A stretch of 64,000 nucleotides of DNA from Thioalkalivibrio nitratireducens DSM 14787 (GTDB lineage: Bacteria; Pseudomonadota; Gammaproteobacteria; Ectothiorhodospirales; Ectothiorhodospiraceae), in the NCBI RefSeq assembly GCF_000321415.2, contig NC_019902.2, positions 496,001-560,000 on the forward strand, read 5' to 3'. A program made the translations under genes and the position numbers. Below are positions 362-19,898 of the stretch, piece after piece; positions within the stretch are counted from its first letter, which is position 1; each line of letters starts with the position of its first letter. The notes beneath the pieces were generated by a model, which saw nothing but the letters and a program-made list of their open reading frames with translations, searched no databases and was not told where the DNA came from.

Positions 362-793
362 TTACTTCTCAGCTGGCCGATTCGTCTGGAGCCAGTTCTC
401 CACCCGCAGTCCGGGCACGCGCTGGAATTCTCGCTGGTTGTCGGTGACGACCGTGGCGCCGAGTGCCAAGGCGTGCGCCGCGATCAAGAGGTCATTCGGG
501 CCGATGGGCTGTCCGGTCTGCTCGAGTTGCAGACGGAGCCGCCCGTACTCGCGGTCTGAGGGTAGGTCGAGCGGCTCTACGCGCATGGCACCAAGGACCT
601 TCTCCACCTGCTCCGTCAGCGCTACGGATCCCCGCTTCGCTGCACCGAACCGTAGTTCGGCAGCAGCGATGATGGAGGTGCAGACCGCGTGTTCACCGAC
701 CCTCTCGATCCCGCGTTTGACGATTCCCTGAGGGTGGCGAACCAGATCGGAGAGGATGTTGGTGTCCAGTAGGAAAAGCGGCGTGTCCGTCAC
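362..793 (-). CDS. vapC: Type II toxin VapC, PIN-domain ribonuclease
   Basis: A 143-residue PIN-domain protein. It carries the acidic residues expected of the Mg2+-dependent RNase site: Asp in LLDTNILSDL near the N-terminus, Glu in AAELRFG, Asp in PNDLLIAAHAL and Asp in VVTDNQREF. Length and layout match VapC of the FitB/VapC group, which cleaves RNA when free of antitoxin. Its ATG overlaps the last 4 nt of vapB (ATGA), so the two are translationally coupled, antitoxin first. It is the first of four distinct TA modules interleaved with Rpn genes in this island. Confidence 0.9.
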   Translation of the reverse strand: MTDTPLFLLDTNILSDLVRHPQGIVKRGIERVGEHAVCTSIIAAAELRFGAAKRGSVALTEQVEKVLGAMRVEPLDLPSDREYGRLRLQLEQTGQPIGPNDLLIAAHALALGATVVTDNQREFQRVPGLRVENWLQTNRPAEK

Positions 794-1029
794 AGGCGTA
801 CGTCGTCCAGCGCGCCGAGCCCGGAATCAATATTGGGGAACTCTTCTTCGAGATCGTGCAGTGTGGCCAGTGTGGCAAGGAGTCCCTTGCGCCGGACGGG
901 CTCGATCACGAGGCGGTCGTCTTCCCGATAGATGACGGCTTCGTCTGTGTCCAGTTCGAACTCCCGCGGAATCCGGACCGCTTGGTTACGGCCGTTGCGG
1001 AAGAGTCGGACATGACGGGTGGTTTCCAT
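790..1029 (-). CDS. vapB: Type II antitoxin VapB (AbrB/SpoVT fold)
   Basis: A 79-residue protein with the swapped-hairpin AbrB-type DNA-binding N-terminus (RLFRNGRNQAVRIP) and an acidic C-terminal tail suited to wrapping VapC. The frame is open further upstream, but the METTRHV start at 1029 is preferred. It has a GAAGGTG-like Shine-Dalgarno sequence, matches family length, and leaves the palindrome at 1051-1070 in the promoter region. It neutralises VapC and probably autorepresses the operon through that palindrome. Confidence 0.88.
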   Translation of the reverse strand: METTRHVRLFRNGRNQAVRIPREFELDTDEAVIYREDDRLVIEPVRRKGLLATLATLHDLEEEFPNIDSGLGALDDVRL

Positions 1030-1050
1030 CTCGGCACCTTCGGAACCTGG

Positions 1051-1070
1051 GCATATGCTCCAGCATATGC
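1051..1070. promoter_or_regulatory. Probable VapBC operator (palindrome)
   Basis: gcatatgct-cc-agcatatgc is a perfect inverted repeat with 9 bp arms. It lies 22 bp upstream of the vapB start, where TA autorepressor complexes normally bind. Binding by VapB is inferred from position and symmetry. Confidence 0.6.
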
Positions 1071-1236
1071 CATCACTCCGTCTTGCTGCAAGGGGCTGGG
1101 TCAAATTGACCCCTTCCCTGCACGACGCATTACGAGCGGGTGGCGATCGCACAAGGAGTTCAGTTCGGCCCTTGCAACAAGGGAAGCGTCCATATGGATC
1201 CCCCCGGGGCGGTGCGTCTCCCGGGGTGGCGCTTAC

Positions 1237-1727
1237 AGGCCATGCTGGGCAGGTTCAGCCGGGCCACCAGGTTGGGGCTGTCGAAGTGCTGCCGGGCTGG
1301 AATGCGCGGCAAGGCGTACGCCAGGAAGCGGAAATCGAGAAGGTGCCTGCGTCGCCCCCAACGCAAGTCGCTCGGGGAATTCACCCGCGTGCAGGAACAC
1401 CAACACCGGCACGACGCGCTGCGTATCCAGCAGTTCCGAAAGGTCCAGGCAGTAGTGGGCGAGCCGATGCACCGAAAACCGTGCCGGCTCGGTTTCCTCC
1501 TCGATCACGAACAGGACCGCTTCGCGCCGGCCGTCTGGCCACTGGACGAGGAGCGGAACGTCCAGTTCCCGGAAGCGCTCGCCGAGGCGTTCCTGCAATT
1601 GTTCCTGGCGGACCGGCGTAACCCGCGCGTCCGCGTCGATGGCTTGCGCCTCGCTGGCCGCGAACAGCGCGATGGCCTCGCGCGGATAGTCGAGAATGAG
1701 GTTCTTGAAGTTCTGGTCGTGCGTCAT
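1237..1727 (-). pseudogene. Rpn-family nuclease copy A: frameshifted and lacking the C-terminal half
   Basis: The start (ATG at 1727) and first ~165 codons match the complete copies at 3004-3978 and 5707-6657. A single-base deletion near 1340 ('gagaagg' where the intact copies read 'gagatagg') breaks the frame after the nuclease core. Homology stops at about 1237, so the C-terminal region with the EQGL repeats and the internal start is missing. The same deletion is in copy D (8619-9591). Both the nuclease and the putative internal antitoxin are therefore lost. The 150 bp to its left (1080-1236) is not shared with the other units and holds a GGGTCA-AAT-TGACCC palindrome (1098-1112). Confidence 0.85.
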
Positions 1728-3003: not shown

Positions 3004-3312
3004 TTATTGCAACACTTCGTCCAGTGTCTTTGCGCTCAGTATCCGGTCGGACCATAGCAGCAACGTATCGGCGTCGGCGGATTCCACCCGCGTGAGTACT
3101 GCCTCGGGCAGCGGGCCGAACTTCAGCGTCAGTTGCCGCGTCAGTACGCGTGCCTCGCCCAGGCCAATGCCTTCCTGCCGGCCCTTCTCCAGTCCCTGTT
3201 CGAGGCCTTGTTCGAGGCCTTGTTCGATGCCTTGTTCGATGCCTTGTTCCAGGCCTTGTTCCAGGCCTTGTTCCAGGCCTTGCTGGATGAACCGTTCTGC
3301 GAAGCGCGTCAT
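3004..3312 (-). CDS. Candidate internal short product of Rpn copy B (RpnS-like antitoxin)
   Basis: An in-frame ATG at 3312 is preceded, with 7 nt spacing, by GGAGGAGGT (3328-3320), one of the best Shine-Dalgarno sequences in the window. Translation from here gives a 102-residue protein made of the EQGL repeats and the C-terminal domain. E. coli Rpn genes are reported to make such a separately translated C-terminal product that blocks the full-length toxin. The GAG GAG GTG codons also encode Glu-Glu-Val of the long form, so coding need alone could explain part of the match. Confidence 0.5.
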   Translation of the reverse strand: MTRFAERFIQQGLEQGLEQGLEQGIEQGIEQGLEQGLEQGLEKGRQEGIGLGEARVLTRQLTLKFGPLPEAVLTRVESADADTLLLWSDRILSAKTLDEVLQ

Positions 3313-3978
3313 CTCTGCCACCTCCTCCGGGTACCGCTGGCGGTAGACGATACGCTCATTCTCGTCCAGTGCCGCGTAGATGTCGATGAAATCCAGGTAT
3401 TTGAGCCGCCGCTCGGGGTCCGGTTCCAGGTCGGTCAGCCCCCGTACTGCGTGGGCATAGACGTCTACCTTGTCCTCGGGACCGTAGGCCATGTTGGGCA
3501 GGTTCAGCCGGGCCACCAAGTTGGGGCTGTCGAAGTGCTGCCGGGCTGGAATGCGCGGCAAGGCGTACGCCAGGAAGCGAAAGTCGAGATAGGTGCCTGC
3601 GTCGCCGCCCAGCGCAAGCTGTTCTGGGAATGCGCCGGCGTGCAGGAACACCACCACCGGCACGACTCGCCGCGTATCCAGCAACTCCGAGAGGTCCAGG
3701 CAGTAGTGGGCGAGCCGATGCACGGAAAACCGTGCCGGCTCGGTTTCCTCCTCGATCACGAACAGGATCGCTTCGCGCCGGCCGTCCGGCCACTCGACGA
3801 GGAGCGGAACGTCGAGTTCCCGGAAGCGCTCTCCGAGGCGTTCCTGCAACTGCTCCTGGCGGACCGGCGTAACCCGCGCGTCCGCGTCGATGGCTCGCGC
3901 CTCGCTGGCGGCGAACAGCGCGATGGCCTGGCGCGGATAGTCGAGAATGAGGTTCTTGAAGTTCTGGTCGTGCGTCAT
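3004..3978 (-). CDS. Rpn-family recombination-promoting nuclease/putative transposase, complete copy B
   Basis: A 324-residue protein with a PD-(D/E)XK-type N-terminal nuclease core: Asp56 in LDVPLL, a strand pair around VEWPDG, then FVIEEETEP with acidic residues 76-80. A helical region and eight QGLE/QGIE tetrapeptides (about residues 234-265) follow. Family members promote DNA cleavage and RecA-independent recombination, and E. coli Rpn proteins are reported to be toxic anti-phage proteins controlled by their own C-terminal part. An internal ATG (Met223) with an exact GGAGGAGGT Shine-Dalgarno lies just before the repeats. The gene sits between the HigBA module and R3. It is nearly identical to copy C, which has two fewer tetrapeptides. 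Confidence 0.85.
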   Translation of the reverse strand: MTHDQNFKNLILDYPRQAIALFAASEARAIDADARVTPVRQEQLQERLGERFRELDVPLLVEWPDGRREAILFVIEEETEPARFSVHRLAHYCLDLSELLDTRRVVPVVVFLHAGAFPEQLALGGDAGTYLDFRFLAYALPRIPARQHFDSPNLVARLNLPNMAYGPEDKVDVYAHAVRGLTDLEPDPERRLKYLDFIDIYAALDENERIVYRQRYPEEVAEMTRFAERFIQQGLEQGLEQGLEQGIEQGIEQGLEQGLEQGLEKGRQEGIGLGEARVLTRQLTLKFGPLPEAVLTRVESADADTLLLWSDRILSAKTLDEVLQ

Positions 3979-5559: not shown

Positions 5560-5706
5560 AATCTCTTGTGCGCAGGCAGTTCTGCGCGAGCGGATAGCTG
5601 CAGAAAGTGGGTGTCCCGGAGTTGCCGCAGCTGGTCGTTTCCTTGGCGTGGATGTGTTGCGCGCGGGGGCAGTGCCCGAGCGCGCGGATCGGGTCGGTCG
5701 CTCTTG

Positions 5707-5991
5707 TTATTGCAACACTTCGTCCAGTGTCTTTGCGCTCAGTATCCGGTCGGACCATAGCAGCAACGTATCGGCGTCGGCGGATTCCACCCGCGTGAGT
5801 ACTGCCTCGGGCAGCGGGCCGAACTTCAGCGTCAGTTGCCGCGTCAGTACGCGTGCCTCGCCCAGGCCAATGCCTTCCTGCCGGCCCTTCTCCAGTCCCT
5901 GTTCGAGGCCTTGTTCGAGGCCTTGTTCGATGCCTTGTTCCAGGCCTTGTTCCAGGCCTTGCTGGATGAACCGTTCTGCGAAGCGCGTCAT
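5707..5991 (-). CDS. Candidate internal short product of Rpn copy C (RpnS-like antitoxin)
   Basis: Same arrangement as in copy B: ATG at 5991 with GGAGGAGGT (6007-5999) 7 nt upstream, giving a 94-residue product with six tetrapeptides. If the repeat number sets dimer pairing, the B and C antitoxins may differ in partner choice. That last point is speculation. Confidence 0.5.
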   Translation of the reverse strand: MTRFAERFIQQGLEQGLEQGIEQGLEQGLEQGLEKGRQEGIGLGEARVLTRQLTLKFGPLPEAVLTRVESADADTLLLWSDRILSAKTLDEVLQ

Positions 5992-6657
5992 CTCTGCCAC
6001 CTCCTCCGGGTACCGCTGGCGGTAGACGATACGCTCATTCTCGTCCAGTGCCGCGTAGATGTCGATGAAATCCAGGTATTTGAGCCGCCGCTCGGGGTCC
6101 GGTTCCAGGTCGGTCAGCCCCCGTACTGCGTGGGCATAGACGTCTACCTTGTCCTCGGGACCGTAGGCCATGTTGGGCAGGTTCAGCCGGGCCACCAAGT
6201 TGGGGCTGTCGAAGTGCTGCCGGGCTGGAATGCGCGGCAAGGCGTACGCCAGGAAGCGAAAGTCGAGATAGGTGCCTGCGTCGCCGCCCAGCGCAAGCTG
6301 TTCTGGGGATGCGCCGGCGTGCAGGAACACCACCACCGGCACGACTCGCCGCGTATCCAGCAACTCCGAGAGGTCCAGGCAGTAGTGGGCGAGCCGATGC
6401 ACGGAAAACCGTGCCGGCTCGGTTTCCTCCTCGATCACGAACAGGATCGCTTCGCGCCGGCCGTCCGGCCACTCGACGAGGAGCGGAACGTCGAGTTCCC
6501 GGAAGCGCTCTCCGAGGCGTTCCTGCAACTGCTCCTGGCGGACCGGCGTAACCCGCGCGTCCGCGTCGATGGCTCGCGCCTCGCTGGCGGCGAACAGCGC
6601 GATGGCCTGGCGCGGATAGTCGAGAATGAGGTTCTTGAAGTTCTGGTCGTGCGTCAT
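5707..6657 (-). CDS. Rpn-family recombination-promoting nuclease/putative transposase, complete copy C
   Basis: A 316-residue protein, identical to copy B apart from one Phe-to-Ser change (near residue 117) and a loss of two EQGx tetrapeptides (six instead of eight, a 24 bp difference). The same PD-(D/E)XK core and C-terminal domain are present. The unit also shares more than 130 bp on its left side and the ~200-250 bp leader on its right. Near-identity of B and C implies recent duplication or gene conversion. Repeat contraction is in frame, as reported for variable Rpn repeats. Confidence 0.85.
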   Translation of the reverse strand: MTHDQNFKNLILDYPRQAIALFAASEARAIDADARVTPVRQEQLQERLGERFRELDVPLLVEWPDGRREAILFVIEEETEPARFSVHRLAHYCLDLSELLDTRRVVPVVVFLHAGASPEQLALGGDAGTYLDFRFLAYALPRIPARQHFDSPNLVARLNLPNMAYGPEDKVDVYAHAVRGLTDLEPDPERRLKYLDFIDIYAALDENERIVYRQRYPEEVAEMTRFAERFIQQGLEQGLEQGIEQGLEQGLEQGLEKGRQEGIGLGEARVLTRQLTLKFGPLPEAVLTRVESADADTLLLWSDRILSAKTLDEVLQ

Positions 6658-7015: not shown

Positions 7016-7568
7016 CGCCATCGCCGTCAGCACGGCGGCTTCATCAAGCAGCGCGTGGCTCTTGAACCGCCCCTCCCAGAACCGGCCCGTGACTCCGTCC
7101 TCGGCATTCGCCATCCGCGAGATCGATTCGTTCAACACCCGCATGTACCAGGACAGGTCCCCCAGTCGCGCACGGTAGGTCGCGGCCCAACCCTGCACCG
7201 CCTCGAGCTGCGCCTCGACCAAGCCCGCGCCGCCATCCCGCAAATACTGCTGCACCAGTTCCGGGCCGGTGTAGAGCCTGGTCCAGCGCCGAAGCACCTC
7301 GTCGTCCGACCACCCCTGGGCCCGCTCCGCATCGACGCGCACGACTTGATGGAAGTGGTTCGACATCACGGCATACGCCGCTACATCGACCGCAAACACC
7401 CCGGCCAACTGCTCCATGCGCGCCACGATCCAGCCGCGCCGGTGCTCGAAGTTGCGCCCGGTCGACAGATCCTCGCCACACAGAAACGCCCGGCGCACGC
7501 AGCGGGAGATCACGTGGTACCAGGGAGTAGCCTCCAGGCTGACCAGGGACGAGCGGGGGTAGGGCATG
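7016..7568 (-). pseudogene. N-terminal half of a RAYT/Y1-type HUH transposase
   Basis: ATG at 7568 (MPYPRSSLVSLEATPWYHVISRCVRRAFL). It contains the HUH metal motif as NHFH (His71, His73) after DVAAYAVMS and the conserved GRFWEGRFKSHALLDEAA block. This is the family of ~320-residue REP-associated tyrosine transposases. Homology stops after TAMA, where 'YVDLNPVRA' would be expected, and the frame continues into R5 with unrelated residues. The downstream half, from the same family and on the same strand, is at 1-139. The gene is therefore broken, with R copies at both broken ends. Confidence 0.85.
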
Positions 7569-8618: not shown

Positions 8619-8927
8619 TTATTGCAACACTTCGTCCAGTGTCTTTGCGCTCAGTATCCGGTCGGACCATAGCAGCAACGTATCGGCGTCGGCGGATTCC
8701 ACCCGCGTGAGTACTGCCTCGGGCAGCGGGCCGAACTTCAGCGTCAGTTGCCGCGTCAGTACGCGTGCCTCGCCCAGGCCAATGCCTTCCTGCCGGCCCT
8801 TCTCCAGTCCCTGTTCGAGGCCTTGTTCGAGGCCTTGTTCGATGCCTTGTTCGATGCCTTGTTCCAGGCCTTGTTCCAGGCCTTGTTCCAGGCCTTGCTG
8901 GATGAACCGTTCTGCGAAGCGCGTCAT
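8619..8927 (-). CDS. Candidate orphan RpnS-like antitoxin within disrupted Rpn copy D
   Basis: The internal start (ATG 8927, GGAGGAGGT at 8943-8935) and the 102-residue C-terminal frame are identical to those of copy B, although the upstream nuclease part is frameshifted. This copy could still supply short C-terminal product in trans to copies B and C. That follows only if the gene-within-gene model applies here. Confidence 0.5.
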   Translation of the reverse strand: MTRFAERFIQQGLEQGLEQGLEQGIEQGIEQGLEQGLEQGLEKGRQEGIGLGEARVLTRQLTLKFGPLPEAVLTRVESADADTLLLWSDRILSAKTLDEVLQ

Positions 8928-9591
8928 CTCTGCCACCTCCTCCGGGTACCGCTGGCGGTAGACGATACGCTCATTCTCGTCCAGTGCCGCGTAGATGTCG
9001 ATGAAATCCAGGTATTTGAGCCGCCGCTCGGGGTCCGGTTCCAGGTCGGTCAGCCCCCGTACTGCGTGGGCATAGACGTCTACCTTGTCCTCGGGACCGT
9101 AGGCCATGTTGGGCAGGTTCAGCCGGGCCACCAAGTTGGGGCTGTCGAAGTGCTGCCGGGCTGGAATGCGCGGCAAGGCGTACGCCAGGAAGCGGAAATC
9201 GAGAAGGTGCCTGCGTCGCCCCCAACGCAAGTCGCTCGGGGAATTCACCCGCGTGCAGGAACACCAACACCGGCACGACGCGCTGCGTATCCAGCAGTTC
9301 CGAAAGGTCCAGGCAGTAGTGGGCGAGCCGATGCACCGAAAACCGTGCCGGCTCGGTTTCCTCCTCGATCACGAACAGGACCGCTTCGCGCCGGCCGTCT
9401 GGCCACTGGACGAGGAGCGGAACGTCCAGTTCCCGGAAGCGCTCGCCGAGGCGTTCCTGCAATTGTTCCTGGCGGACCGGCGTAACCCGCGCGTCCGCGT
9501 CGATGGCTTGCGCCTCGCTGGCGGCGAACAGCGCGATGGCCTGGCGCGGATAGTCGAGAATGAGGTTCTTGAAGTTCTGGTCGTGCGTCAT
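8619..9591 (-). pseudogene. Rpn-family nuclease copy D: frameshifted mosaic of copies A and B
   Basis: ATG at 9591. The nuclease-core part (about 9180-9591) follows copy A, including the same single-base deletion near 9204 and matching substitutions. The part to its left, with eight EQGx tetrapeptides, follows copy B exactly. Copy D is thus a recombinant of two lineages. The full-length nuclease cannot be made without frameshifting, but the frame from the internal ATG at 8927 to the stop is intact. On the left the unit has a ~20 bp internal deletion compared with B and C (around 8552). Confidence 0.85.
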
Positions 9592-9790
9592 GCACCTGAG
9601 CCCTCCGTCCGTGGCGGAACACCAAGGCTAGCACCGGGGCAGGCGATGTCAGGCTACGGTCATCCGCAAGTGGGTGCCCGACGTTTCTTGCCTGTGGACG
9701 TACCCGATCGGCGGTGTGGAGCCCCCCGTTGGAGACGGGTCCTGGTGTGGCTCCCGGACGAAGCGGCAATCCATGCCGCGGGAGACGCGG

Positions 9791-9956: not shown

Positions 9957-10400
9957 TCAGCGCCAGCACTGCTCAGGCGTCCGGGTCACTCCGGCAAAAT
10001 CGACCTGCAGTGTGATCGTTTGGCACTGAGCCCCGAACACGCGCTGTTCCCGGTCCTGCTGTTGTCCCGTTGCTGTCGCGGTTGCGGTGTAGCCAACGCG
10101 GCCCGCCGCCGGGACATCGATCGTGTAGCGGCCCTCGGGCGATGTTGCGAGCCCTCCGACCTCCAGCAGTGCCTCAACCTGCGCGAGCGTACCATAGCTC
10201 GCCTGCGGATCCCGCGCCCGGTAGCGTTCCTGCAGCAACTGGATCTGCTGAAGCGCCGCGTGGGCATCGCCTCGGTTGGTTTTCACGATGTGCCGTTCAA
10301 ATGCGGGGTAGGCAATGGCCACGAGAACGCCCACCACGGCCACAACGATGAGCAACTCGATCAGCGTGAATCCGACCGGACCGGGGGTTCGCTTGTTCAT
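9957..10400 (-). CDS. pilE: Type IV major pilin-like protein PilE
   Basis: Type IV prepilin with a short leader ending in Gly (MNKRTPGPVG) before FTLIELLIVVAVVGVLVAIAYPAF, the class A N-terminal helix cut and N-methylated by PilD. The mature part is about 137 residues, with a pair of Cys near the C-terminus (QC and EQCW) forming the D-region loop. This matches PilE of the fimT/pilVWXE minor pilin set. ATG at 10400 is preferred over the in-frame GTG at 10415 because it gives a normal leader. It is divergent from fimT, with a ~200 bp shared upstream region. R6 lies directly behind the stop. Confidence 0.88.
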   Translation of the reverse strand: MNKRTPGPVGFTLIELLIVVAVVGVLVAIAYPAFERHIVKTNRGDAHAALQQIQLLQERYRARDPQASYGTLAQVEALLEVGGLATSPEGRYTIDVPAAGRVGYTATATATGQQQDREQRVFGAQCQTITLQVDFAGVTRTPEQCWR

Positions 10401-10599
10401 GTCGCAACCATCCACTACGGCAAGCCGTCAACACGGGGACAGGTTCTGCTTAGAAGACTAGCACCAAAGACGTGGAACCCGCACCGCTGGAGCTGCAAGA
10501 ACGACCGCTGGGGGTATCCCAAGCGTTGCCCCTTGCCCCGTGCGCTACGCTTGAGCCATTAGCGGGAACAAATGGCCGGGAGCCGTGAGCGGGGACCAA

Positions 10600-11193
10600 A
10601 TGATCGGCAATTCGCAATCGGGTTTCACCCTGATCGAGTTGATTATCACCATCGTCGTTCTCGTCGTGCTGGTCACGTTGGCAGCACCTTCGTTCGTCGA
10701 TGTCCTAGACCGCCGTCGTATCGTCGATGCCGCGGAAACCCTGATGAAGCAGGTACAGCAGGCTCGCGCGGTTGCGATTGAATCGAATCGGGAGATCAGC
10801 ATGGTCTTCGATGATTCCGGGACCACTTGGTGCTTTGGCCTGACTGCTGCAGCGGGTTGCGACTGCTACGAAAGTGACCCCTCCGAGCCCGATTCCTGCC
10901 AGATTCCCTTCGGGGCTTTGGTAAACCTCGCCGGAACCGACTTCGAACTGATTCGTGCCTCTGGCAATGATTTCCCGGGAGTGACCCTTCAGAACTTTCC
11001 CGCCGCCCTGCGTTTCGAGCCCATGCGGGGGGTGCGTGTCGACGCGGCGGGTCCCACCGTAACCATCGAATTCGTCTCCGCACGCGATCGCGAAGCACAT
11101 GTGGTTGTGAATCGCCTAGGGCGGGCAGGCACCTGCTCGCCGGCCGACGCCGGCGGCGATCCCTCGGTGACGACCATGAGGCTTTGTCCATGA
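10600..11193 (+). CDS. fimT: Prepilin-like protein FimT/FimU (GspH family)
   Basis: A ~197-residue protein with prepilin motif GFTLIELIITIVVLVVLVTLAAPSF and a GspH/FimT C-terminal domain, including the SNREISMVF strand. Two Cys-containing segments (CDCYESD, SCQIPF) lie in the mature domain. FimT/FimU primes pilus assembly. ATG at 10600 has GGGG upstream; the GTG at 10585 is an alternative. It is the first gene of a plus-strand operon, its stop overlapping the pilW ATG (ATGA). Confidence 0.85.
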   Translation: MIGNSQSGFTLIELIITIVVLVVLVTLAAPSFVDVLDRRRIVDAAETLMKQVQQARAVAIESNREISMVFDDSGTTWCFGLTAAAGCDCYESDPSEPDSCQIPFGALVNLAGTDFELIRASGNDFPGVTLQNFPAALRFEPMRGVRVDAAGPTVTIEFVSARDREAHVVVNRLGRAGTCSPADAGGDPSVTTMRLCP

Positions 11194-17340: not shown

Positions 17341-18063
17341 GTGAATCTAGCGCATTTGGCGCGTTCAGGGAGGGTACGGCTCCTTGATCACTACCGGCCG
17401 CTGGACCGGTATGGCGTGGACGTCGTCAGCCTTGCAGTGCTTGCGGATGACCGGGCCGGCGTTCGGCCCACGGGTTATCAGCGTGGGGGCTGGGGCTGCG
17501 AAGTGGCGTTCCGGTTTCCGACGGTGAAGCTGCTGGATTGGCAGCGACGCTGGTCGGAGCTGGAACAGAGTTCGAACATTTGCGCCGTCGTGGTGATGGC
17601 GCAGATCCGGGCCAAGGCGAGCCGCGACGCGAGGGACCGCAAGGCGTGGAAGTTTCGGCCGGTACCGCTGCTCTACGATCGCGGCTACGACCGGGCGGTT
17701 ATCCTGGAGCTGTTCCGGGTGATCGACTGGATGATCCGTCTGCCCGAGGCCCTGGAAAGGGAATTCCTGGGCGAGCTGCATGCGTTTGAGGAGGAGAAGG
17801 CGATGCCGTTCATTGCACCCGCGGAGAGGCTCTGGAAGTGGCAGGGGTTCGAGCAAGGGCGCCAGGAAGGGCGCGAGGAGGGCGAGGCTCTGGGCCTGGT
17901 GGCGAGTATCGTGAACATTCTGGAGATGCGGTTCGGCCTGCAGGATGCCGGTTTGGTCTCGCGACTTCGGCGGCTCACGGCCGATGAGCTACGTCCCCTG
18001 GTGCGCCGCACGCTGGAGATTCCTGCCCCGGAGGCGCTGTTCGTGGAGCAGTCGGGGCACTGA
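17341..18063 (+). pseudogene. 5'-truncated Rpn/PD-(D/E)XK family gene (copy E, divergent)
   Basis: From about 17370 the frame encodes the part of an Rpn-like protein just after the nuclease strands (LDHYRPLDRYGVDVVSLAVLADDR), then KLLDW, and ends in a C-terminal domain with a short EQGRQEGREEGEALGL segment. The N-terminal nuclease core is absent. The frame stays open backwards, but only as antisense of algZ. A GTG at 17341 could act as start. It belongs to a different Rpn subfamily from copies A-D and lies on the opposite strand. Confidence 0.7.
17803..18063 (+). CDS. Candidate RpnS-like short product of truncated copy E
   Basis: An internal ATG preceded by GAGGAG (17788-17796, spacing 6) sits at the same relative place as in copies B-D, just before the EQGRQEGREEG region. 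It would give an 86-residue C-terminal protein. Its survival in a truncated gene parallels copy D. Expression is inferred only. Confidence 0.3.
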   Translation: MPFIAPAERLWKWQGFEQGRQEGREEGEALGLVASIVNILEMRFGLQDAGLVSRLRRLTADELRPLVRRTLEIPAPEALFVEQSGH

Positions 18064-18407
18064 CTTGCGGTCGGGGCACGGACGCGCTGAAAAAAGCGGA
18101 TGCAGGGGTCGGACCAAGTCAAGCCATTGAATCGCAGTGATTTCGCCCGCGAATAACCACGGTGATTTGTGCTTGCACGCACGTTTTGGGAATGCCCCCG
18201 CGCCTTCTTGCACAGCGCTGCGCGCGCGCCGTATCGTCACCCCCGTCCCCTCGGTGAAAGGATTCACCAATCCAACTCCCGGACAGCCACTTCAATTGGG
18301 TGCTTCGGCGATGGGTGTTCGGGGCGTGCCCTATCGGTCCTCCGCTGCCCGCCGCATAATGCGCGTTTGGTTTTTCGGGCGCTGTCGGTGACGGCTGGGG
18401 TTGCAGG
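18064..18407. other. Non-coding gap
   Basis: A 344 bp gap between the Rpn-E stop and the diguanylate cyclase GTG. I see no gene, RNA or clear promoter here. Confidence 0.5.
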
Positions 18408-19898
18408 GTGCCAGGGAACAAGGTCTATCTGATCACGGTGCTGACGCTGATGCTGCTCGCCGGCTTCATCGCGACGACGCTGATCAGCTATTTCGCCGCG
18501 GCACGGACGTTGAGCAGCCAGGTTGCCGAAGAGACGCTGCCGCTGACCAGCGACAACATCTACTCCGAGATCCAGCGGGATCTGCTCACGCCGGTGCTGA
18601 TTTCCTCGCTGATGGCCCGCGACACCTTCGTGCGCGACTGGGTGCTGGATGGGGAGGGTGAGGTGGCCCCCATGCTGCGCTATCTCCAAGAGATTATGGA
18701 CGAGTACCGCACGATCACCGCGTTCTTCGTCTCGGATCGGACGTTCCGCTATTACCATCCCAGCGGGGTGCTGAAGGAGGTCAGCCCGGAGGACCCCGTC
18801 GACAGCTGGTACTTCCGCGTGCGCGAGTCCCGGGCGCCGTACGAGATCAACGTGGATACCGACACCGCCGATCGCAGCCGCCTGAGTATCTTCGTGAATT
18901 ACCGCGTGCTGGATTACGAGGGTCGCCTGCTGGGCGTAACCGGGGTTGGCCTTGGAGTGGATGCGGTGGTGCGCACGATCGAGGCGTACCAGCGCCGCTA
19001 TGGCCGGACGATCTACTTCGTGGACCGCGAGGGCCACGTGACGCTGCACGGCAGCGATTACTCCGGGGCCCGGCGCATCCAGGATGCGCGCGGTCTCGGG
19101 CAGCGGGCCCTGCAGGTGCTGACCTCGCCCAGTGCCTCGATCACCTATGAGCGCCACGATGGACGCCTGGTGTATGCGAACAGCCGGCTGGTGCCCGAGT
19201 TCGGCTGGTACTTGATGGTCGAGCAGGACACGGTGCGGGGGATCCGGACGATCGAGACCTCGCTGCTGATCAACATCCTGCTGGCGCTGGCTGTGACCGC
19301 GTTGGTGCTGTTCGGGGCGTACCTGACTCTAAGCCGTTATCAGCAGCGCCTGGAGCAGATGGCGACCACGGACCGCCTCAGCGGGGCCGCGAACCGCCAG
19401 GTCTTCGACATCGTGTTCGAGCACATTGCTGCCACGCTGCAGCGCGACCCGCGGCCCGTGTCGGTCATCCTGCTCGACATCGATCTATTCAAGGAAGTGA
19501 ACGACAGCTTCGGCCATCCCGGTGGTGACGTCGTGATCCGGCAGCTCGTCGAGCTGATCCACCGCTGCGTGCGCGAGGAGGATACGGTCTGCCGCTGGGG
19601 CGGCGAGGAGTTCCTGGTCCTGCTCGACCGTTGCCCAGCCGAGCGGGCGCGGGCGGTGGCCGAGGGCATTCGTGAAGCGGTCAAGAGGGAGCCCACCGTG
19701 TTTGGCCGGGACCGGATCGCGATCACGATCAGTGCCGGGGTGGCGGAGCTGCTTCCTGGCGAGGGCGCGACCGGAATCATCGGCCGTGCGGATGCGGCCT
19801 TGTACCGGGCCAAGCGCGAGGGCCGCGACCGGGTGTATCTCGCCGAAGGCGCTGCCCCTGTGGCTGCGTCCGTCCCCGGGCAGCGCCGGTACGGTTGA
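18408..19898 (+). CDS. Membrane diguanylate cyclase with extracytoplasmic Cache sensor and GGDEF domain
   Basis: A 496-residue protein starting at GTG 18408. It has a TM helix at residues 7-29 and a periplasmic dCache-like sensor (about 40-280; FFVSDRTFRYYHPSG, LLGVTGVGLGVD). A second TM follows at 284-306, then a GGDEF domain with an intact active site (GGEEF, 398-402), a TDRLSGAANR start and an RxxD inhibitory site (R389-D392) five residues before it. It should make c-di-GMP in response to a periplasmic ligand and be product-inhibited. LapD/LapG at 49-52 kb are plausible downstream users of c-di-GMP. Confidence 0.9.
   Translation: MPGNKVYLITVLTLMLLAGFIATTLISYFAAARTLSSQVAEETLPLTSDNIYSEIQRDLLTPVLISSLMARDTFVRDWVLDGEGEVAPMLRYLQEIMDEYRTITAFFVSDRTFRYYHPSGVLKEVSPEDPVDSWYFRVRESRAPYEINVDTDTADRSRLSIFVNYRVLDYEGRLLGVTGVGLGVDAVVRTIEAYQRRYGRTIYFVDREGHVTLHGSDYSGARRIQDARGLGQRALQVLTSPSASITYERHDGRLVYANSRLVPEFGWYLMVEQDTVRGIRTIETSLLINILLALAVTALVLFGAYLTLSRYQQRLEQMATTDRLSGAANRQVFDIVFEHIAATLQRDPRPVSVILLDIDLFKEVNDSFGHPGGDVVIRQLVELIHRCVREEDTVCRWGGEEFLVLLDRCPAERARAVAEGIREAVKREPTVFGRDRIAITISAGVAELLPGEGATGIIGRADAALYRAKREGRDRVYLAEGAAPVAASVPGQRRYG

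Follow-up and report, generated by a model that had tools for sequence, protein, structure and literature searches.

A mosaic rpn-like gene of Thioalkalivibrio nitratireducens with a broken long frame and an intact internal frame for a candidate antitoxin

The rpn-Like Copies and Their Setting

The genome of Thioalkalivibrio nitratireducens DSM 14787 is a single contig of 4.0 Mb. The stretch of it analysed here, referred to as the window (64,000 nucleotides, C1:496001–560000), carries in its first 10 kb four minus-strand copies of one gene (A, B, C, and D), and further on a remnant of a second rpn family (P). The main features are the following, in window positions:

362–1092, minus strand: vapBC-like module beside A (PIN 362–793; MazE-type antitoxin, scanned as 802–1092)
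1237–1727, minus strand: copy A, N-terminal part alone, homology stopping at codon ~164, with two one-base deletions; likely donor of the tract in D
3004–3978, minus strand: copy B, intact, 324 aa, with an internal frame of 102 codons
5707–6657, minus strand: copy C, intact, 316 aa, with two 4-residue repeats fewer than B and D
8619–9591, minus strand: copy D, chimeric rpn-like gene with a broken long frame
8619–8927, minus strand: internal frame of D, 102 codons, DNA identical to that of B; RpnS-like candidate antitoxin
8935–8943, minus strand: Shine-Dalgarno-like site GGAGGAGGT, 7 nt before the internal ATG
8971–9591, minus strand: N-terminal frame of D, 206 codons, ~124 of them in the family register and the following ones out of frame
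9195–9509, minus strand: putative conversion tract in D, outer limits 9135 and 9522, 315/315 identity to A
17389–18063, plus strand: copy P, second-family rpn remnant, N-truncated and C-open, internal ATG at 17803 after GAGGAGGAGAAGGCG

Four modules resembling type II toxin-antitoxin systems are interleaved with the four rpn copies between 362 and 8410, the order being PIN/MazE, A, HigB with an HTH partner, B, HicB-like/PIN_3, C, PIN/Phd, and D. A 263-base repeat found upstream of the copies has at least 10 matches in the genome among the best 40 of 49 candidates, all located at ~493–506 kb, and offers a source of homology for duplications and conversion. The frame at window positions 7047–7568, which runs into this repeat and which we took by its look to be a small transposase, has no Pfam match at E<=0.01, and that naming was dropped; two further genome copies of the frame carry stops.

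Relatives were searched for in 47 genomes (the same set for family and order), 369 genomes of the class and 398 of the phylum, the copy numbers for class and phylum being lower bounds (best 6 and 5 candidates per genome), and in one additional scan of genome contigs (14 loci). Most of the named related loci (10/14) are labelled Thioalkalivibrio, and two plasmid records carry the C-terminal part (C part) alone.

A Divergent Family with the Layout of RpnL/RpnS Pairs

RpnL and RpnS of Escherichia coli are described as intragenic toxin-antitoxin pairs (Zhong et al., 2023; PMC10327210). The genes studied here resemble the pairs of that report in several respects: a nuclease-like N-terminal part (N part), an internal start and a small C-terminal protein; a variable count of 4-residue repeats soon after the internal Met; and multicopy arrays with extra stand-alone copies (RpnES and RpnCS in the published case). 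They differ from them in that the B-type proteins score below the Rpn profiles PF04754 and TIGR01784. None of 11 B-type proteins matches PF04754 at E<=0.1, and of the two proteins scanned with TIGR01784 (NCBIfam) B gave no row and the C-terminal frame of D reached E 0.45 (10.3 against 52.1 bits). Copy I, a member of the second family, scores 16.7 bits with PF04754 (cut-off 21). According to the same report, DUF4351 is the label of some stand-alone RpnS proteins (PMC10327210). The C part of the present family is like DUF4351 proteins (PF14261) in matching this profile weakly in 10 of the 11 members (E<=0.1, best 3.7e-6), and unlike them in that copy B and its C part lie under the curated cut-off (18.5 and 22.2 vs. 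25 bits). In layout the genes agree with the RpnL/RpnS pairs described for E. coli; the family itself is divergent and escapes the Rpn profiles.

The model of the N part (pLDDT 77) contains a predicted nuclease-like domain at residues ~1–159. Its structural matches include PaqCI (Z 6.2, rmsd 4.3, 132 residues aligned), EndoMS (Z 5.8; 3.3, 103), McrC (Z 5.3; 4.2, 117) and BamHI (Z 5.0; 4.7, 125), and the best Foldseek match was EcoO109I (E 0.03). Nucleases make up 8 of the 11 rows shown at Z >=5.0, with a top Z of only 6.2, and non-nucleases such as DolP (Z 5.8) score alike. As modelled, the N part may resemble restriction-type nucleases. Residues D56..E76-x-E78 are conserved in the B-type family, and the second family of this genome reads, by eye, E-x-Q at the latter positions. 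We take the D56..E76-x-E78 arrangement of the B-type proteins to be BamHI-like.

Near the end of the gene lies an internal start preceded by a Shine-Dalgarno site, as in an RpnL/RpnS pair. In 15 of 22 family genes the site at codons 222–230 pairs with the anti-Shine-Dalgarno sequence better than, or as well as, that of any other in-frame start scanned; in 2/22 it ranks second and in 4/22 no good site is present there, one further gene being cut short. The scan excluded the last 50 codons and so missed the site of L041 and of L118. Synonymous shuffling of 20 genes taken singly (L053 and L072, with no ATG at codons 215–232, fell outside its scope) found the site significant in none (P 0.085–0.62). 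The site is strong, and the single-gene shuffles do not demonstrate selection on it independently of the protein. The 4-residue repeats start ~10 residues past the internal Met, within the 8–20 residues that characterize RpnL/RpnS pairs, and their number varies among members: the internal frame has 102 aa in B and D and 94 aa in C, and relatives have other repeat numbers. The C parts of the B-type and second in-genome families are clearly related (hhalign probability 99.7).

The modelled small protein is all-helical (pLDDT 88). The solved RpnA-S entry was listed neither by Foldseek with this fold nor by profile search, and no RpnS entry appeared when solved structures were searched with the C part of B, with the whole profile or with that of the C part. 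For the repeats, FliH was rejected, its profile matches being far under the cut-offs (39.9 vs. 192 bits), and PADLOC yielded no more than a weak hit to "putative invertase" in the repeat region.

Mosaic Structure of Copy D

The copies were aligned base by base, and sites setting A apart from both B and C were taken as informative. At the 65 sites so defined D is A-type at 27, B/C-type at 36 and gapped at 2; all 27 A-type sites lie in one unbroken run, which was produced by 0 of 20000 shuffles. This run and the alignment bear out the proposal of an earlier note on this DNA that D is a mosaic. The gene consists of three parts: a C-like flank with the first 23 codons, an A-identical tract and a B-identical end.

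The C-like part extends rightwards from 9523 (23 codons and ~340 bp of flank), and upstream of the tract D agrees with C at 427/427 aligned bases (2 one-base gaps), with B at 403/427 and with A at 387/427. Within 9195–9509, where A is matched at every base, B is matched at 290/315. From the tract down to the stop, D agrees with B at 576/576 bases and with C at 552/552 plus a 24-base gap, so that the B-likeness of this end is decided by the 24-base repeat indel alone, both B and C being identical to D elsewhere. The description of D as A-like on the right and B-like on the left therefore stands for the A tract and for the left end, identical to B apart from the caveat just given; the tract is internal, however, and the C-like right end rules out a two-part mosaic. 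Two single bases present in C are missing from the upstream flank of D (window 9639–9680), each from a G/C-rich run.

Copies A and D have in common two one-base deletions, next to positions 1357 and 1341 of A and 9221 and 9205 of D (net −2). The deletion noticed earlier near 9204 and 1340 is the second of them, and a single shared deletion is ruled out by the alignment. Both copies also have Gln at position 62, where 11/11 aligned relatives have Glu. One recombination point of D falls between 9134 and 9195, overlapping the expected interval 9110–9180. Homology between A and the gene stops at D 9101, 33 bp past the B-type site at 9134, and A does lack the C-terminal half, as had been stated. 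A departs from B/C within the tract as well as beyond it, and D resembles A nowhere but in the tract, which makes A the likely donor; since A has no homology beyond D 9101, conversion from A could not have reached the C-terminal part of D.

As the earlier note had it, the long frame of D is disrupted and the internal start and C-terminal frame are intact, leaving a 206-codon N-terminal frame and a 102-codon internal frame. The long frame is gone from ~codon 125, which in the predicted PD-(D/E)XK-like fold would place the break ahead of the final strand and of the helices that follow it. D56, E76 and E78 are kept in the N-terminal frame; nuclease activity has nevertheless presumably been lost. 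From the internal start, D may produce a putative C-terminal protein of 102 residues, the same as that of the intact B.

Proposed History of Copy D

The reading that we favour, and consider probable, is that D was a B/C-type gene converted by pseudogene A and is now most likely a spare RpnS-type antitoxin for B. Starting from a B/C-type rpn-like gene, a recent gene conversion from the neighbouring pseudogene A would have overwritten D from codon 23–28 to codon ~133–153, and D would thereby have inherited the two one-base deletions of A together with the change of Glu62 to Gln. A tract carrying these deletions would account for the loss of the long nuclease frame, and the C-terminal part would have been spared because A has none left. 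The product of D would now act as a spare antitoxin pairing with the long form of B and less well with that of C, since C has two fewer 4-residue repeats, as may be expected from the published work on RpnL/RpnS. The mosaic itself is observed; we infer the conversion and its direction, and two crossovers would yield the same sequence of D. By analogy with the E. coli pairs, the long form of this family would be a putative toxin and the small form its putative blocker.

Loss and Retention of the Two Parts in Other Copies

The condition of the N and C parts was inspected in the other copies of the genome and in relatives, among them G013, a sister genome:

Same genome, intact: B, C, E (5679–6575), I (3993572–3994582)
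Same genome, N part lost and C part open: D, F (10255–10884), G (18198–18518), J (3999047 area), P (window 17389–18063)
Same genome, both parts hit: A; H (3395961 area)
Relatives, N part lost and C part open: G013:53685, M (G013:461783), L045, L108, C-only copy in G166
Relatives, both parts dead: G013:727010, L046, L047, L142, L143
Short N-only pieces: G037:C365 (2–42), G046 (1–28), L044 (6–48), L144 (1–136)

Nine queries placed the first ~103 residues of P in no upstream frame. The C-only copy of G166 lies ~50 bp after a full gene. G013:53685 has the junction of F and was counted with it as one event; G013:41760 was counted with J on the basis of an equal query range. In L041, a metagenome-assembled relative (draft genome), the N part is open and a stop occurs 13 codons into the internal frame. 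In K (G013) both parts are open and are uncoupled by a frameshift ~6 codons before the internal start; L144 is like K, with the frameshift ~18 codons before that start and the N part cut by the contig end. Copies cut by contig ends were left out (L141, G405:C54, G014:C31, L043/L054, L044 at 3–404, G030:C105 and C81, G035:C163, G038:C311, G005:C44). Inspection of the second family covered I, J, P, L108, and L109, and rows outside it include G001:C3:2257, G007:C1:1403303 and 1404749, and G002:C5:4603 (short frames or N-only ranges).

Eight events apart from D removed the N part and left in place an open C part with its internal start (F, G, J, P, M, L045, L108, and the C-only copy of G166), and no inspected copy had lost the C part by deletion with the N part open. 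This distribution (8 vs. 0, D excluded) has P = 0.008 under a 50:50 null and 0.050 when weighted by part length; with D and L041 included (9/10) the values are 0.021, two-sided, for 50:50 and 0.13, one-sided, by length.

Such a bias would follow if the long form is toxic, so that copies losing the antitoxin part had to die and antitoxin-only copies were favored or tolerated. As an account of D we regard selection of this kind as possible while leaning against it. Besides the count of eight to none, it is consistent with copy A, the one inspected copy that lacks the C part and kept codons 1–164, which carries two deletions and Gln62, and with the published RpnP2L*, a long form without the small protein under its native promoter, for which every construct is reported to have carried inactivating mutations (PMC10327210). 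Against it stand the length-weighted nulls for the deletion-type events and for all ten, the open N parts of L041 and K, which lack an intact in-frame C part, and the fact that the donor A was incapable of altering the C part of D. The claim that the two copies look as they should if the long form is toxic is accordingly weak for D, which is too recent and whose donor A lacks the C sequence, and finds moderate support in the copies elsewhere, where the trend favors the idea and is not decisive. The proposed survey of toxin-dead, antitoxin-intact copies against the opposite class likewise gave a one-sided count for deletions, qualified by L041 with its broken C part and by the uncoupled K; an intact long form without a C part, the finding that would have spoken against toxicity, did not occur in the own genome among the matches listed. 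In D itself retention of the C part is passive. Being identical in pieces to its sources, D leaves no visible time for selection to have acted, and taken alone it is no evidence of selection. The survey suggests that leftover antitoxins are often kept in related genomes.

The same piecewise identity to A, B, and C, with selection on D unreadable, agrees with a somewhat unlikely reading in which D is a decaying pseudogene of a repeat array, its C frame intact merely from recency and its product irrelevant. Other remnants are dead in both parts (A, H, G013:727010, L046, L047, L142, and L143), as this reading would have it, but the eight other events are at odds with it, and so is the F pair, whose frame has been preserved and whose omega has stayed low after the N part was lost. 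In this pair (one N-loss junction in two species) omega is ~0.12 in the N remnant and C part alike, with 13 synonymous and 5 nonsynonymous changes in the former and 12 and 5 in the latter. The substitution pattern indicates that the F orphan is maintained, though not visibly as a bare antitoxin only, since equal values in the two parts are not predicted by an antitoxin-only reading.

The omega of 0.12 in the N remnant of the F pair (codons ~87–215), the same as in its C part, would be expected if the selected unit exceeded the internal frame and the N remnant with the C part formed a longer decoy, a catalytically dead partner of the intact long forms. This we consider unlikely: G and L045 retain just ~34 codons upstream of the internal start, and a start site for the longer product was not identified. 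Passage of the tract from D to A, with which the identity of the two tracts would agree, is very improbable, as A differs from B/C in and outside the tract and D is A-like only in it.

Significance of Copy D

Gene-within-gene pairs of this kind are already known, and D provides a good natural test of them. Conversion of D by pseudogene A, the history favored here, would distinguish this orphan from the published RpnL/RpnS cases; the terms "gene conversion" and "pseudogene" have 0 occurrences each in the main text of PMC10327210. Read in this way, D would be a base-by-base example of a stand-alone antitoxin arising from a gene-within-gene pair with the intact parents in the same genome. As D matches B and not C in repeat number, specificity by repeat number can be tested cleanly on this natural case. 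It also cautions against reading selection into every broken copy whose antitoxin frame is intact.

A broader, speculative proposal, to which we give little credence, is that within this island of toxin-antitoxin genes a dead rpn copy serves as a template that spreads nuclease lesions to intact copies by conversion, making antitoxin-only genes with a preset repeat number. If this were true, detoxified copies would arise by recombination and not by selection on point mutations, and the repeat number would set which sister toxin is silenced.

Neighbors of Copy A and of Orphan C Parts

The vapBC block beside A (334–1190) is 97.7% identical to a block of the sister genome G013 (L201:1209–2066), which directly abuts the C-terminal rpn fragment M, starting at codon ~163, where the homology of A ends. 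Given this arrangement, loss of the C half of A by simple deletion is doubtful. Possibly, and as a lead only, a vapBC cassette interrupted a single rpn gene, of which the two species retained opposite halves; an N half upstream of vapBC was not found in G013, and the 46 bp between the vapBC block and A are at odds with such a split.

Three of eight orphan C parts (L106, L030, and L029) are found immediately downstream of a type II toxin gene or of the end of one: M follows a PIN gene, G a PIN gene (E 4e-8) and F the end of a HicA gene (E 1e-8). Copy H has lost its N part, and its C part is split by an insertion of 3.45 kb (L031, G000:C1:3392425–3395903) with frames that look, by eye, transposase-like and ATPase-like; the motif ATCTGCG is present at both joints of this insertion, like a target duplication.
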